Below, in pieces: positions 6,246 through 14,543 of a stretch of DNA of 64,000 bases. The notes below the pieces were generated by a model. It searched no databases. It was not told the origin of the DNA and saw only the letters and a list, made by a program, of their open reading frames with translations. The stretch is from Gammaproteobacteria bacterium (GTDB taxonomy: Bacteria > Pseudomonadota > Gammaproteobacteria > Pseudomonadales > Azotimanducaceae), in assembly GCA_003247835.1 (NCBI GenBank), contig QJYB01000047.1, positions 1-64,000 on the forward strand, written 5' to 3'. The position numbers and the translations under genes were made by a program. How positions within the stretch are numbered: the first letter of the stretch is position 1; the number at the start of each line of letters is the position of its first letter.

Positions 6246-7613
6246 CTATTTCTCCGTGAGCCTCGCGAGCTTCCGGTACAGGACCCGCTCGCTGATACCG
6301 AGCGCCTCCGCCAGCTGCCTGCGGTCGCCGGGAAAGGTGGCCACCGCCCTCCGCAGATAGTTTTCTTCCACCCGTGACAGCGGAATGAGTCCCGCGCCGG
6401 ACGACGGATCCGATTCCAGCTCGGTGTTCACCTCACCCCCACGCAGCACTTCCGGCAGGTGTTCGGGGCCGATGGTGTGTCCATCCGCGAGCAGCACCGC
6501 ACGTTCCAGCAGATTCCGCAGCTCGCGCACGTTGCCCGGAAACGGGTAGGCCCGCAACAGGTGCATGGCGCCGTCCGAGACGGACATATCCGGACGTCCC
6601 AGCCGATCGAGGATGCTCCTGCTCAATGGTCCCAGGTCGGCCGTACGCTGCCTGAGCGGTGGCAGCACGATCTCGAAGACGTTCAGACGGTAGTAGAGAT
6701 CCTCCCGGAACTCGCCCGCCCGCACGAGTGCTGCCAGATCCTTGTTGGTTGCGCAGATCAGGCGGAAGTCCGTCTGCCGCCATTCGGTGCTGCCCACACG
6801 ACGGAAGCGGTGCGTCTCGAGCAGTCGCAGCAGCTTCACCTGCTCGGACAGTGGCACCTCACCGATCTCGTCGAGAAACAGCGTGCCGCCTGCAGCCGCC
6901 TCCACCAGGCCGGGCTTGTCGGCGTTCGCACCGGTGAACGCGCCCTTCACGTAACCGAAAAGCTCGCTCTCGAACAGCGTATCCGGCAGTCCGGCACACT
7001 CGACGGGCACGAACGGTCCGCCACCACGTGGACTCATCCGGTGGATGGCCTCGGCCATGAGCTCCTTGCCCGTGCCGGATTCGCCGAGCAGCATCACGGT
7101 GGCCTCACTGGTCGCGACCCGCTCCGCCAGACCCAGTGCCTTCTGGAAGGCAGTGGAGCGGCCGACGAGTCCGTGCGGACTGGCCTGGGCACTGGCAACC
7201 CGGGACGGACGCATGATTTCGATGAAGCAGCTGATGGTGCCCGTCGCCGGATCCTTCACCGGCCACATCTCCACGTTCACGTACTCCTCACCACGTGGCG
7301 TGTGGTGCACGTGCAGAACCCGGCTGTTGTCCCGGGTTTCGAGGCTGCGCTTCAGCGGGCAGGATTCACCGGCCTGATCACAGGGCACCTGATAGTGGTG
7401 CGACACCTCGTAGCAGTGGCGCTTTGCCAGCGCGGTTCCATCACCGTAGAGCGCCTGATAGGCGCTGTTCGAGCGCAGGATCCGGTAGTCCCGGCCGAGC
7501 AGTATGGCCGGATCGTCGAGGCACTCGAGAATGGCGTTCACGTCCGGGTTCACCTCGGATTCCGTGGTGATTTCGATGCCCTGTCCGTCTGACGCTGTGG
7601 TGTGGTCGCTCAT
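6246..7613 (-). CDS. fisR: Sigma54-dependent Fis-family regulator, FisR-like sulfane-sulfur sensor
   Basis: PAS-like N-terminus, GESGTGKE Walker A, GAFTGA motif, C-terminal Fis-type HTH; ATG at 7613 has a GGAAAGAG RBS; divergent from persulfide dioxygenase. Confidence 0.8.
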
Positions 7614-7732
7614 CTCTTTCCGCGCTGCTCCCGGCACTGATCCATCAGGCTGCCGATTATGGCAGATATTCACTGCCAGACACTGACATTTCCGGCGCCC
7701 CAGAAGGCGTTGCGCACCTCAGACTTCTTTTA

Positions 7733-7745
7733 ACCCATTGAAATA
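7733..7745 (-). promoter_or_regulatory. IHF-like site
   Basis: Minus strand TTTCAATGGGTTA, one mismatch to WATCAANNNNTTR, just upstream of a sigma54 promoter. Confidence 0.35.
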
Positions 7746-7761
7746 TAACGACTAAACCGGT

Positions 7762-7777
7762 TGGCACGATTCCCGCA
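7762..7777 (+). promoter_or_regulatory. Sigma54 (-24/-12) promoter
   Basis: TGGCACG-ATTC-CCGCA; GG and GC elements exactly 12 nt apart, about 45 nt upstream of the persulfide dioxygenase ATG. Confidence 0.75.
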
Positions 7778-7821
7778 TTACGACTGGCAGTTGTGACAGA
7801 TTTCAAGCTCCGGAGACAGCT

Positions 7822-8727
7822 ATGACCCCAGAGACGGCAGCGTTCTTCGATCCAGCCACCTTTACCTGGAGTTACGTGGTCATGGATCCGGAGTCCAATG
7901 CGGCGGCGATCATCGACTCGGTGCTCGACTACGATCCGGCATCCGGTCGTACCTCCACCGCGTCCGCCGACCGGCTGATCGACTTCGTTCGCCGGCGCGG
8001 GCTCTCAGTCGAGTGGATTCTCGAAACCCACGTGCACGCCGACCATCTTTCCGGAGCGAGCTACCTGAAGGACGCGCTCGGTGCCCAGACCGGCATCGGC
8101 AATCAGGTGGGCGCGGTGCAGAGCGTCTTCGGCGACCTCTTCAACGCCGAAAAGACCTTTCCGCGGGATGGCAGCCAGTTCGACCATCTTTTTGCAGAAG
8201 ACGAAACGCTCACGATCGGCTCTCTCGAGGCGCGGGTATGGCACACCCCCGGCCACACGCCGGCCTGCGTGACCTACGTCTTCGACGGCGCGGCCTTCGT
8301 CGGCGACACCATCTTCATGCCGGACTACGGCACCGCCCGAACCGATTTTCCCGGCGGTGACGCGCGCACCCTTTACCGGTCGATCCGCCGCATCCTGTCG
8401 CTGCCCGGGAGCACGACGCTCTATCTCTGCCACGACTACGAAACGGCAGATCGTTTGGAATTCTGTTCGCAGACGACGGTCGCCATAGAGCGGGCGAAGA
8501 ACATCCACGTCCACGACGGTATCAGCGAAGAAGCCTTCGTCACGTTCCGTGAACAGCGCGATGCAGAGCTCGCCGCACCCCGACTGCTGCTGCCGTCCGT
8601 GCAGTTCAACATGCGCGGTGCATCGCTGCCGCCCGCAGAAGAGAACGGCATGCACTATTTCAAGATTCCCGTGCGCCCGACGGCGCCTGCTGTCGACACA
8701 ACCGGTTCCGCGGACGAGGCGGCGTGA
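7822..8727 (+). CDS. pdo: MBL-fold persulfide dioxygenase (ETHE1/PDO type)
   Basis: 301 aa; metal motif THVHADHLSG, HTPGHTPAC, GDTIF; operon context. Confidence 0.85.
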   Translation: MTPETAAFFDPATFTWSYVVMDPESNAAAIIDSVLDYDPASGRTSTASADRLIDFVRRRGLSVEWILETHVHADHLSGASYLKDALGAQTGIGNQVGAVQSVFGDLFNAEKTFPRDGSQFDHLFAEDETLTIGSLEARVWHTPGHTPACVTYVFDGAAFVGDTIFMPDYGTARTDFPGGDARTLYRSIRRILSLPGSTTLYLCHDYETADRLEFCSQTTVAIERAKNIHVHDGISEEAFVTFREQRDAELAAPRLLLPSVQFNMRGASLPPAEENGMHYFKIPVRPTAPAVDTTGSADEAA

Positions 8728-8776
8728 TGCGTAGACCGGCACGAGCCCGAATACGCCACGGCAGGAGCGCGTCCTG

Positions 8777-9544
8777 ATGGCTGCCATGGTGTTCGCCTGG
8801 CCCGGGGCCATCGCCATCGGTCTGTCCCTCGGAATGCTCGGCTCCGGCGGCTCGATCCTCACGGTGCCGGTGCTCGTCTACCTGCTCGGCCAGCCCGAAA
8901 AGCTCGCCATCGCCAGCTCGCTCGCCATCGTCGGCCTCATAGCCGCCGTCGGCAGCGTGCCTTTCATGCGGGCCGGTCTGGTGAAATGGCGAGCGGTGGT
9001 AATTTTCGGCGCGCCGGGAATGGCTGGTACCTATCTGGGGGCCTGGCTTGCGATGTTCGTCTCCGGCGCGGTGCAGCTCACGCTCTTCGCCGCCGTGATG
9101 CTCGCGGCCTCGGTGCTCATGATCCGACCGCTGCGCTATGACGGGCCGGGCGAACCACGAGCCATGTGGAAAATCACACTGGCCGGTCTTGCCGTAGGCG
9201 TGATCGCCGGCCTGGTCGGCGTGGGCGGTGGATTTCTGGTGGTACCGGCACTGGTGCTCGGCGGTGGTCTGTCCATGCGTCAGGGTGTGGCCACGAGCCT
9301 CGTGATCATCGCGCTGCAGTCGTTCAGTGGCTTCTACAAGTACCTGGACGTGCTTGCTGCTGAGCATATCGAGCTCGACTTCCACATCATCGCGATCGTC
9401 AGCCTGCTCGGCATTGCCGGCACCTTCGCTGGAAATGCGGTTGGCGGCCGGCTCGACCAGCGCAGCCTCAAGAAGACGTTCGGTGCGTTCCTCATCGTCA
9501 TGGGGACTTTCATTCTCATCCGCTCCGTACCGGCGCTTCTGTAA
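8777..9544 (+). CDS. Sulfite exporter TauE/SafE family permease
   Basis: 255 aa polytopic membrane protein, GSGGSILTVPVLVYLLG and GVGGGFLVVPALV repeats. Confidence 0.85.
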   Translation: MAAMVFAWPGAIAIGLSLGMLGSGGSILTVPVLVYLLGQPEKLAIASSLAIVGLIAAVGSVPFMRAGLVKWRAVVIFGAPGMAGTYLGAWLAMFVSGAVQLTLFAAVMLAASVLMIRPLRYDGPGEPRAMWKITLAGLAVGVIAGLVGVGGGFLVVPALVLGGGLSMRQGVATSLVIIALQSFSGFYKYLDVLAAEHIELDFHIIAIVSLLGIAGTFAGNAVGGRLDQRSLKKTFGAFLIVMGTFILIRSVPALL

Positions 9545-9576
9545 GCCGGATGGGCCAAGCAGCAGGAACAGGCAAC

Positions 9577-11274
9577 ATGGACATCAAGCAACTCTCGCCT
9601 TTTCTCTCCGTGTCTCCCCAGATCAGCCCGGCGGACGTCGGCATTCTGGCGAGTCAGGGATACCGGACCATCATCTGCAACCGCCCGGACGGCGAAGCAG
9701 ATGATCAGCCCAGCACCGCGGAGATCGGTGCGGCCGCCGAGCGGCACGGGCTGACCTTCCATGCCCAGCCGGTACGAGCCGGGCAGGTCACGGACGACGA
9801 TGTCGCGCAGTTTGCAGTACTGCTGCGCGATGCAGAGGGACCTGTGCTCGCGTTCTGCCGGACGGGCACCCGATCCATCTCCATGTGGGCGCTGTCCGAG
9901 GCGCACCACCTGTCGACGGACGCCATTCTCACCACCGCAGCAGGCCATGGTTACGATCTCGCCAGTCTGCGGGAACGCCTCGACGGCGCTCACCGGGAAG
10001 TGCCTGAACGCCGTAGCATGCCCGTCCACGATGTCGTCATCGTCGGCGGCGGCGCGGGTGGTCTTGCCACGGCATCCAGTCTGCTCAAGCGCAGACCCGG
10101 GCTCGACATCCTGGTCCTCGAGCCCCGCGACCGGCACTACTACCAGCCAGGCTGGACGCTGGTGGGTGGTGGGGTGTTCGACCGCGGCCTCACTGAACGC
10201 ACCATGGCCAGCGTCATACCCGAAGGCGTGAAGTGGCAGAAGTCCGCCGTGGCCGGCTTCGAGCCGGAGCACAATGCGGTGGTGCTGGAAGACGGCGAAC
10301 GGGTCGGCTACCGGACGCTCGTCGTCGCTCCGGGCATACAGCTCAACTGGCATGCGGTGGAGGGTCTGACGGAAACCCTGGGCCGGAACGGCGTGACTTC
10401 CAACTACAAGTTCGATCTCGCCCCCTACACCTGGGAGCTGGTGCAGAACCTGAAAGGCGGTCGTGCCGTGTTCACCCAGCCGCCCATGCCCATCAAGTGT
10501 GCCGGCGCGCCGCAGAAGGCGATGTATCTTTCCTGCGATTACTGGCAGAAACGGCAACGGCTGGCGGACATCGACGTCAGCTTCTACAACGCCGGCGGGG
10601 TGCTGTTCGGCGTGCCGGAGTACGTGCCGGCGCTGGAAAAGTACGTGTCCGACTACGGCGCACAGATGTACTTCCAGCACAATCTGGTGGCTGTCGACGG
10701 CGACGCCCACAGGGCCTGGTTCCAGTGCGGTGATGATCGTGTGGCGGTGGACTTCGACATGATTCACGTCTGCCCGCCGCAGAGCGCGCCCGACTTCGTC
10801 CGGCACTCGCCCCTCGCCGATACCGCAGGGTGGATCGATGTCTCGCCGGAGACGCTGATGCATCCGAAGTACGGCAACGTCTTCGGCCTGGGAGACGCCT
10901 GCGCGGCACCGAATGCCAAGACCGCCGCTGCAGTGCGCAAGCAGGCGCCGGTGGTGGCCGAGAACGTGCTCGCGGTGCTGGCCGGCAATGACCCCCGAGC
11001 CATCTACGACGGCTACGGCTCCTGCCCGCTCACCGTGGAGCGTGGAAAGATCGTACTGGCGGAGTTCGGCTACGGGGGAAAGCTGCTGCCTTCCCTGCCG
11101 ACGTGGCTTCTCGAAGGCAGGAAACCGACACGGGCAGCCTGGTTCATGAAGGTGAAGCTGCTGCCCTGGATCTACTTCGATCTCATGCTGAAAGGCCGTG
11201 AGTGGCTTGCCGGACCGGAGCTGCTGCCACACGAGCCGACGCCGCACGAGGCGCAACCGGCACAGTCGAGCTGA
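9577..11274 (+). CDS. sqr: DUF442 (CX4R phosphatase/sulfurtransferase-like) - sulfide:quinone oxidoreductase fusion
   Basis: N-terminal DUF442 with CRTGTRS; C-terminal FAD oxidoreductase VIVGGGAGGLATASSLLKRRP with PPMPIKCAGAPQKAMYL typical of SQR; start MDIKQLSPFLSVSP in ORF 9550..11274. Confidence 0.85.
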   Translation: MDIKQLSPFLSVSPQISPADVGILASQGYRTIICNRPDGEADDQPSTAEIGAAAERHGLTFHAQPVRAGQVTDDDVAQFAVLLRDAEGPVLAFCRTGTRSISMWALSEAHHLSTDAILTTAAGHGYDLASLRERLDGAHREVPERRSMPVHDVVIVGGGAGGLATASSLLKRRPGLDILVLEPRDRHYYQPGWTLVGGGVFDRGLTERTMASVIPEGVKWQKSAVAGFEPEHNAVVLEDGERVGYRTLVVAPGIQLNWHAVEGLTETLGRNGVTSNYKFDLAPYTWELVQNLKGGRAVFTQPPMPIKCAGAPQKAMYLSCDYWQKRQRLADIDVSFYNAGGVLFGVPEYVPALEKYVSDYGAQMYFQHNLVAVDGDAHRAWFQCGDDRVAVDFDMIHVCPPQSAPDFVRHSPLADTAGWIDVSPETLMHPKYGNVFGLGDACAAPNAKTAAAVRKQAPVVAENVLAVLAGNDPRAIYDGYGSCPLTVERGKIVLAEFGYGGKLLPSLPTWLLEGRKPTRAAWFMKVKLLPWIYFDLMLKGREWLAGPELLPHEPTPHEAQPAQSS

Positions 11275-12328: not shown

Positions 12329-14365
12329 TCAGCCCAGCAGCTGCTCCAACTCGTCCAGCAGCTGCTCCCGGCCCGTCCACTCTCCAGCACGCCCGCTGAA
12401 CGCCTCGGTGACGAAGAACGGCTGGCAGAAGTACCTGAGCAGCCTGGCCGCCCGGGACTGCTGCCCATCAGGCACATCGAGCAGGGAAAACTCCGGATCG
12501 CTTTCCAGGCAGGTGTGCAGCTGCTGACGTGCCGTTCGGGCAAGCTCCGCGTGACGCTCGCCCAGCACACCGTCGCCCAGTGTGCTGAGTGACCGCTCCG
12601 GATCCAGCGCAGGAAAGAGGTATCTCTGCGCGCGCCGGCGATCCAGGTTGATCTGCCCGGTATAGGGTGGACGCAGCTCGGCCCAGATATTGTCCCGCTC
12701 CGGAAATCCCGTGACGACAATAGTGGTGATGGCACCGCGCTCCGAAGGAGCAGCCAGCCGCATCAGGTTCGCCTCCACGTCTGCGTCGAAGCCCTCAGTG
12801 GAGAGCACCACCGCGAGCACGTCGCGTTCGTCATCGCGCAGCGCTTCGGCGAGATCCAGACCTCTGTCGAATGCAGCCCTCCGATCTGCCGCCGTTTCGT
12901 TGAAGCTGGCAAGGCCGCAGCGGACGATGTCGGTGAGACCGAACTCGGCCATCTCGGCCTGCCAGTCGGCGAGGTCGAACGGCGGCTGGGCAAAGCCGGT
13001 CCAGATCGCCTCGCCGCGCGGCGCCGCCGAAAACCGTCTGCACAGCTCGCCGAGCAGCACCACCATGCCGACCCCGGCCTTGAACGGAAACCGGACGATG
13101 CCGCCACGTTTCAGTGGCGCAAAGAGATCGAGCGCTCTGATACCGGAGTGTATGCGGTCGTCCTCCACCTGGACCGCGCCTCGCGAAGCGGGAAACGGGC
13201 GGTCTGCCGTCCCGGATTGCTCGAGCATCGCGACGATCGCCTCGTGACCGTTGGCTCGCGCCCAGTCCGCCGCCGTTCTGCCGCCCTGCGCGGCATCGGT
13301 GAGCGGGGTCAGCGGCTGCACGTAGCGGGCACCTGAATCCCGAAGCGCCGGATCGGCCCCGTGGGCGAGCAGCAGCTGCGCAAGCTGCTCGCGCCCGCGC
13401 ATGGCAGCCAGATGCAGCGGGAAATTTCCCGCCGCCGACGGCCGGTTGGGATCCGCGCCACGCGTAAGCAGGCAGCGGACATGATCCAGGCGGTTGAAGA
13501 GCGTTGCAGCCCAGAGGGGCGACTCCGCCGTTTCGCAACCGCACTGCCCGTTCACGTCGGCCCCGGCGTCGAGCAGCAGCTCGAGCATGGCGAGGTCATC
13601 GAGCTCCACCGCCGTAATCAGCGCGGTGGCCCGATTCGCGAACGGCAGCACCCCTTCGAACACCAGCGCCGGATCCCACTCGGCCCTCGCATCCACCAGG
13701 GCGGGCGTGTCGTCCAGCATGCGCCTTACCGTATCGCGGTCTCCGGCACGCAGCGCAATGAAGAAACTCACCACCCGGTCCAGCGCTCCAGTACGGGAGG
13801 GTCGCAGTCGGTCCATGGTCTCTTTCATCAGTCTGTCTCCATCCGTTCGCAATCGGGCTCTTGCCGAGCGCAGGCGTTTTTTCACCGTGGACAGTGGTAT
13901 CTCCAGGAAGGCCGCCAGCTCTTCCCCGGACGCCTCGGCGAAGTAGTGAAGCGCAACGACCTGCCGCTCCACCGGAGGCAGACCTTCCACCGCGAAGCGA
14001 AGCCGGTCGCCGACGCTGCGCGCCTCCGCGGCCCCGTCCGGTCCCGGATCGTTGGATGCCGGCTCCGGCAGGTCGTGAAGCGGCTCGACTGAAGGCGTCC
14101 TGCGGCGTGTCTGCCGATCGCAATGCTTGACGGCAATCCGTTTCAACCAGGCGCCGAACGCCGCGGGTTCCCTGAGTTGCGCGAGATGCTGATAAGCGTC
14201 GAGAAAGGTCTCCTGGGCGGCGTCCCTGGCTGCTTCCGCGTCACCGAGCCAGCCGTAGGCCGTACCCGCCACCAGATCCTGGTAACGGACGACGAGCTCA
14301 GCGAAGGCGTCGCGATCGCCCTGCTGGGCACGCATCACCACCGTGCGTTCGTCACCGTCCTTCAC
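12329..14365 (-). CDS. ECF-type sigma factor - ankyrin repeats - degenerate F1-ATPase beta-like domain fusion
   Basis: 678 aa single ORF; sigma2 ([41 protein letters not shown]) and sigma4 ([41 protein letters not shown]), ankyrins ([37 protein letters not shown]), then [38 protein letters not shown]. Confidence 0.85.
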   Translation of the reverse strand: [678 protein letters not shown]

Positions 14366-14543
14366 GGCATCTCCTCATGCCTCTCACAACCATTAAAGAC
14401 CCATTCACTGCGGGGTTGGATACCCCGATCCGAAGCTTTTTTCACCCCCCGGTACCGCGGGCACCACCTGATCCGGACCATCGACGCCTGGGGAACACTA
14501 AAAATATGTATAACTGTTTAAATGTTCATACAGTTTCGACTAT

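Follow-up and report, generated by a model that had tools for sequence, protein, structure and literature searches.

An ECF sigma factor fused to ankyrin repeats and a pseudo-F1-beta domain: a putative self-regulating switch

Results

The window, by which we mean the whole stretch of 64,000 nucleotides that was analyzed, carries at 12329-14365 on the minus strand (the strand of all parts of the gene given below) a gene that starts with GTG and encodes a protein of 678 amino acids. The preliminary description of this DNA had seen here a single open reading frame joining ECF sigma2/sigma4, ankyrin and F1-beta-like parts, and Pfam confirmed all three. Sigma-70 region 2 occupies residues 24-89 (14099-14296; Sigma70_r2, 5.5e-12) and contains a cysteine, Cys82, that is invariant in the five members of the family described below; region 4 follows at residues 121-172 (13850-14005; Sigma70_r4_2, 2.1e-10). 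With regions 2 and 4 and neither region 1.1 nor region 3, the protein is an ECF-type sigma-70 factor, and its N-terminus matches the NCBIfam sigma70-ECF model TIGR02937 with 74 bits, against a cut-off of 42.9. Tandem ankyrin repeats come next (residues 201-384, 13214-13765; Ank_2, 1e-29 at residues 249-343) and include a CxC motif, C275-G276-C277 (13535-13543), that is also invariant in 5/5 members. The C-terminus is an F1-ATPase-beta-like domain, a predicted pseudo-ATPase (residues 405-678, 12332-13153), recognized by Pfam, profile, tree and Foldseek. The Pfam model ATP-synt_ab matches residues 408-525 (5.7e-12) and a second stretch, the two together scoring above the cut-off, and F1-beta models are among the best NCBIfam matches of the protein, aligned to its C-terminus. 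Ankyrin and ATP-synt_ab were the only Pfam domains found after region 4, with no SnoaL, TPR or Cys-rich domain among them.

Flanking genes differ at every locus compared, leaving no conserved neighbor. The earlier claim that no separate anti-sigma gene adjoins the sigma gene is thus upheld and, since the copies share no neighbors, nothing else seems to be needed at the locus. A conserved extension after region 4 and the lack of a nearby anti-sigma gene are the two marks of C-terminally extended ECF factors, and the protein bears both. Convergent with the sigma gene lies a tandem SpoIIAA-like gene (PF11964; 11354-12310, plus strand), a STAS-like neighbor which we rejected as an anti-sigma partner because of this convergent orientation and its absence beside the other copies. 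At 6246-11274 a sigma-54-type activator is divergent from genes resembling a persulfide dioxygenase, a TauE-like permease and a DUF442-sulfide:quinone reductase fusion, by eye a sulfide-oxidation cluster. The genome's own AtpA and AtpD are encoded on another contig, and the gene studied here does not belong to the atp operon.

The recurrence of this architecture, a check proposed in the preliminary description, could be established: the complete protein, with the same domain order, is found in four genomes from at least three genera, including that of the window. The three full-length homologues share 46-58% identity with the window protein and come from two Gammaproteobacteria MAGs (58% for G008, L002/L036, contig JAPULC010000106.1; 56% for G001, L003/L037, contig QIDL01000195.1) and from a Pseudomonadales MAG (46% for G493, L021/L038, on the 4.65-Mb contig WLWP01000001.1 and close to its end); the G records were matched to L036-L038 as the same genes by their identical proteins. 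This recurrence excludes an assembly artefact. A fifth copy (G444, L022; 52% identity) is truncated after the ankyrin part by the end of its contig. The gene is rare, with 5/207 genomes of the host's bacterial family carrying it, and the architecture was not found elsewhere in our samples of the order (392 genomes), class (369) and phylum (399). Two short peptide patterns, which distant forms would escape, were also run against 85,462 species genomes and returned the same three relatives only. The gene was also absent from viral contigs and plasmids, and we rejected a mobile or viral origin on these grounds. In another relative (G439) all that is left is a decayed F1-beta-like remnant (L035, 1495-2121, minus strand), with in-frame stops and its sigma part gone, that adjoins an unrelated methyltransferase-like gene; the system is thus dispensable in that relative. 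Between L036 and L037, dN/dS is 0.11 for the sigma domain, 0.07 for the ankyrin region and 0.14 for the F1-like domain, as compared to 1.03 for the short linker that precedes the latter (all values being approximate, as dS exceeds 1). By this measure, purifying selection acts on the F1-beta-like domain as it does on the sigma domain.

Profile scores and phylogeny both trace the C-terminal domain to F1 beta. Scored against a profile of the four complete members, AtpD reached 121-133 bits (E of about 1e-35 to 1e-39), as compared to 24 bits for Rho and 9 for AtpA. A maximum-likelihood tree places the four members in a single clade (support 100), next to AtpD and N-ATPase beta and away from AtpA and Rho, and an origin from either of the latter was rejected on both counts. 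Identity of the domain is 26-34% to F1 betas and 19-21% to AtpA. What it retains is homologous to the RecA-type nucleotide-binding domain of F1 beta. The likeness to AtpD had been described as extending over most of the domain's length; it lies far beyond chance by profile, but it is not complete, as the domain has no counterpart of the N-terminal beta-barrel of AtpD (about 126 aa), of about 20 residues past Walker B, of DELSEED or of the C-terminal tail. The structure comparison with F1 beta that had been suggested for this region gave a concordant result at low-to-middling model confidence. The AlphaFold model of the F1-like domain reached a pLDDT of 76-90 over much of the core (mean 61), and its best PDB matches in Foldseek, with an E of 1e-10 and a TM to the query of about 0.65, were F1 beta chains; the match is not fully independent because one of the five rows of the alignment behind the model was a true AtpD. 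A full-length model made without the AtpD row, of low confidence (mean pLDDT 51), matched F1 beta, ECF sigma factors and ankyrins.

Residue by residue, this domain is a pseudo-ATPase, predicted to be catalytically dead. In 4/4 complete members other residues stand in place of the Walker A Lys and Thr, of the catalytic Glu and of the Walker B Asp. In the window protein the former P-loop (residues 427-435, 13061-13087) reads PFKAGVGMV in place of GGAGVGKTV, losing both Walker A residues; residues 455-465 (12971-13003) stand where the catalytic-Glu loop FAGVGERTREG was; and the former Walker B strand (residues 515-523, 12797-12823) reads DVLAVVLST in place of DVLFFVDNI, without its Asp. Across these members xxAGVGM[VLM] takes the place of GGAGVGKT, [AT]Q[PR] that of GER, and Leu or Gln that of the Walker B Asp. 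In bovine F1, the adenine pocket is lined by Phe418, Phe424 and Tyr345, and what we take to be their counterparts are kept: Phe650 and Phe656 are invariant, within the segment QPFFVTEAF (residues 648-656, 12398-12424), and residue 584 is Phe or Tyr among complete members. The blocks of the former active site have 36 of 55 columns invariant, as compared to 99 of 271 overall (p about 1e-6); on this count, the rewritten active site is the best-conserved part of the F1-like domain.

Upstream of the four complete genes, the sole evident common element is GGTATCC-N15-GGGTCT, a predicted ECF-type promoter that in the window lies at 14397-14424 (minus strand), with a -35-like GGTATCC at 14418-14424, a 15-bp spacer and a -10-like GGGTCT at 14397-14402. 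Many ECF factors, though not all, have such a promoter in front of their gene. It is exact in 5/5 copies, the one at L022 being an independent test as it is not among the four genes that defined the element, and in all five it ends about 26-32 bp upstream of the start codon. No further exact sites occur in the five genomes. Sites with one mismatch or matching a shortened pattern are few, nearly all coding, and close in number to those of a reversed-pattern control. A wider regulon was rejected, given that exact and relaxed patterns led in these five genomes to the gene's own promoter, to sites in long open frames and to sites near control level. L127, an intergenic candidate from the window's genome, does not rise above chance. 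We set aside the hits L086, L087, L098 and L099, which fall within long open frames. The own promoter being the only convincing site genome-wide, autoregulation is indicated: the promoter is probably switched on by the sigma factor of the very gene that it precedes, an assignment made from its conservation and position.

Outside the family proper, the sigma domains nearest to those described here (158-183 bits) belong to a set of sister proteins from the same bacterial family (L004, L023-L031, L033 and L034), in which a large ECF sigma factor is fused to an Eis-like acetyltransferase region. Their C-terminus is GNAT-like, by a weak Pfam match, and has neither ankyrin repeats nor an F1 fold, and the same type of promoter, GTATCY-N15-GGGTCTY, stands at the same place upstream of their own start. 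This points to a promoter specificity common to the sigma core of both types. In 27 genomes we found 27 exact matches to this pattern, against five for its reversed control; 17 of them precede the sigma gene, three precede a DUF5916 gene in genus g39, and the others are apparently coding. In these three g39 genomes (L096, L101 and L102, position about 1501) the site is a second conserved copy and lies 21-45 bp before the DUF5916 gene, which likely belongs to the regulon of the sigma-acetyltransferase protein. The sister set looks like another undescribed type of one-protein ECF system. Another protein of 555 aa (L005, 769-2436, minus strand) has sigma2-sigma4 followed by ankyrin repeats, like the window protein, but ends in the ankyrin part, without the CxC and without an F1-beta part; a weak promoter match (two mismatches) lies shortly upstream of its gene. 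In a tree of sigma domains deep branches are weakly supported, and midpoint rooting does not group the F1-beta type as one clade.

Discussion

Comparison of sequences gives us the architecture and its recurrence, the F1-beta ancestry, the loss of catalytic residues, selection on the F1-like domain, the conservation of the promoter and the lack of a conserved neighbor. The reading that we favor, and hold to be reasonably probable, is that of a stand-alone, self-regulating ECF factor whose ankyrin/pseudo-F1-beta extension acts as sensor or regulator and replaces a separate anti-sigma factor. The sigma domain would bind RNA polymerase and recognize GGTATCC-N15-GGGTCT and, as this promoter precedes its own gene, activation would feed back positively on its own synthesis. 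The ankyrin repeats and the catalytically dead F1-beta domain would form a regulatory extension, and a ligand or partner at or near the rewritten former ATP site would shift it on the sigma domain, setting its activity. We infer that the sigma domain reads the promoter and that the extension controls the sigma domain, as well as the direction and nature of the signal. The preliminary description had given the F1-beta module the part of a sensor by which sigma activity would be controlled, and we too take this to be its most likely role. What we counted against a self-regulating switch is that the five genomes offer no strong second promoter target, that the promoter is assigned to this sigma factor by conservation and position, that confidence in the structure models is low to middling, and that one relative keeps no more than the decayed remnant L035. 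The lack of a second target is also what speaks for a different scheme, in which the sigma domain mainly controls its own synthesis and the ankyrin/pseudo-F1-beta part is an effector acting on another protein, the own promoter being the only convincing target in these genomes. Still, pattern scans would miss weaker promoters, and the sister ECFs of genus g39 do have a second conserved site, before the DUF5916 gene, so that we judge such an effector quite unlikely. That the gene is a chance fusion or an artefact of assembly, or is decaying and has no function, could be argued from its rarity (5/207 family genomes, and none further in the order, class and phylum samples), but four genomes carry the same architecture at 46-58% identity, dN/dS is 0.07-0.14 in all three modules and the promoter is conserved, which makes this extremely improbable.

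As to what is sensed, a tentative proposal, and a rather doubtful one, is that the dead F1-beta was recruited as a ligand-sensing part, keeping the adenine pocket while losing phosphate binding and hydrolysis, and that it would couple an adenine-type metabolite or the status of F1 to transcription. A specific form of the self-regulating reading is sensing of energy or assembly status by mimicry: by binding an adenine nucleotide or a true F1 partner (alpha, gamma or an assembly factor), the pseudo-beta would inform the sigma domain of the status of the ATP synthase or of energy. The clear F1-beta ancestry agrees with this, as does the retention of the adenine-pocket aromatics (Phe650 and Phe656 invariant, Phe/Tyr584) with the phosphate and catalytic residues gone. 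Yet the domain has neither the barrel, which builds the F1 ring, nor DELSEED, which contacts gamma, and with the P-loop Lys gone tight ATP binding is unlikely; we regard mimicry as unlikely too. Alternatively, the signal could be a metal or a redox change, sensed by the CxC and Cys82 as in CorE-type ECFs, with the F1-beta fold serving as a scaffold or dimerization unit. The CxC and the region-2 cysteine are invariant in 5/5 members, and in CorE-like ECFs both a CxC and a Cys-rich C-terminus are required (PMC8999054). However, the protein has just two closely spaced cysteines plus one, and no Cys-rich domain, and its former ATP site is conserved beyond the obvious needs of a scaffold, for which reasons a metal or redox sensor is improbable in our estimate.

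F1 beta ranks with the most conserved enzymes known. If our reading is true, a dead copy of it regulates the sigma factor to which it is fused, which would put the fold to a new use and give ECF factors a new kind of built-in sensor; the fold of an energy enzyme seems to have come to serve a transcription factor as its internal control. In the sister proteins a related sigma core bears other C-termini, which suggests modular swapping of sensors on one sigma factor. Because the promoter is conserved, the switch is directly testable with a reporter.

ECF factors with a fused regulatory extension are known as a class. In ECF41, ECF42 and ECF238, fused C-terminal domains control the sigma factor without an anti-sigma factor (PMC8999054); the SnoaL extension of ECF41 is inhibitory, the TPR extension of ECF42 essential, and the Cys-rich extension of CorE metal-responsive (PMC8999054, PMC8103513). 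Ankyrin extensions of ECF factors are not mentioned in these two reviews, and the earlier statement that no described sigma-ANK-F1beta architecture was known to its author holds in the literature searched, a scope outside which lie the main ECF reclassification and supplements. As far as the searched papers show, the ankyrin/pseudo-F1-beta extension is thus undescribed. Like ECF41, ECF42 and CorE, the window protein has a sigma2-sigma4 core followed by a fused extension, with no anti-sigma gene. Its ankyrin repeats and the TPR of ECF42 are both repeat domains used for protein interaction, and its CxC recalls CorE. At about 500 residues, the extension is far longer than those of the SnoaL and TPR types, of about 120-200 residues. 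It is homologous to F1 beta (AtpD; N-ATPase beta) along the nucleotide-binding and C-terminal parts but, unlike F1 beta, it has lost the barrel, the Walker A Lys/Thr, the catalytic Glu, the Walker B Asp and the DELSEED motif, and it is fused to a sigma factor.
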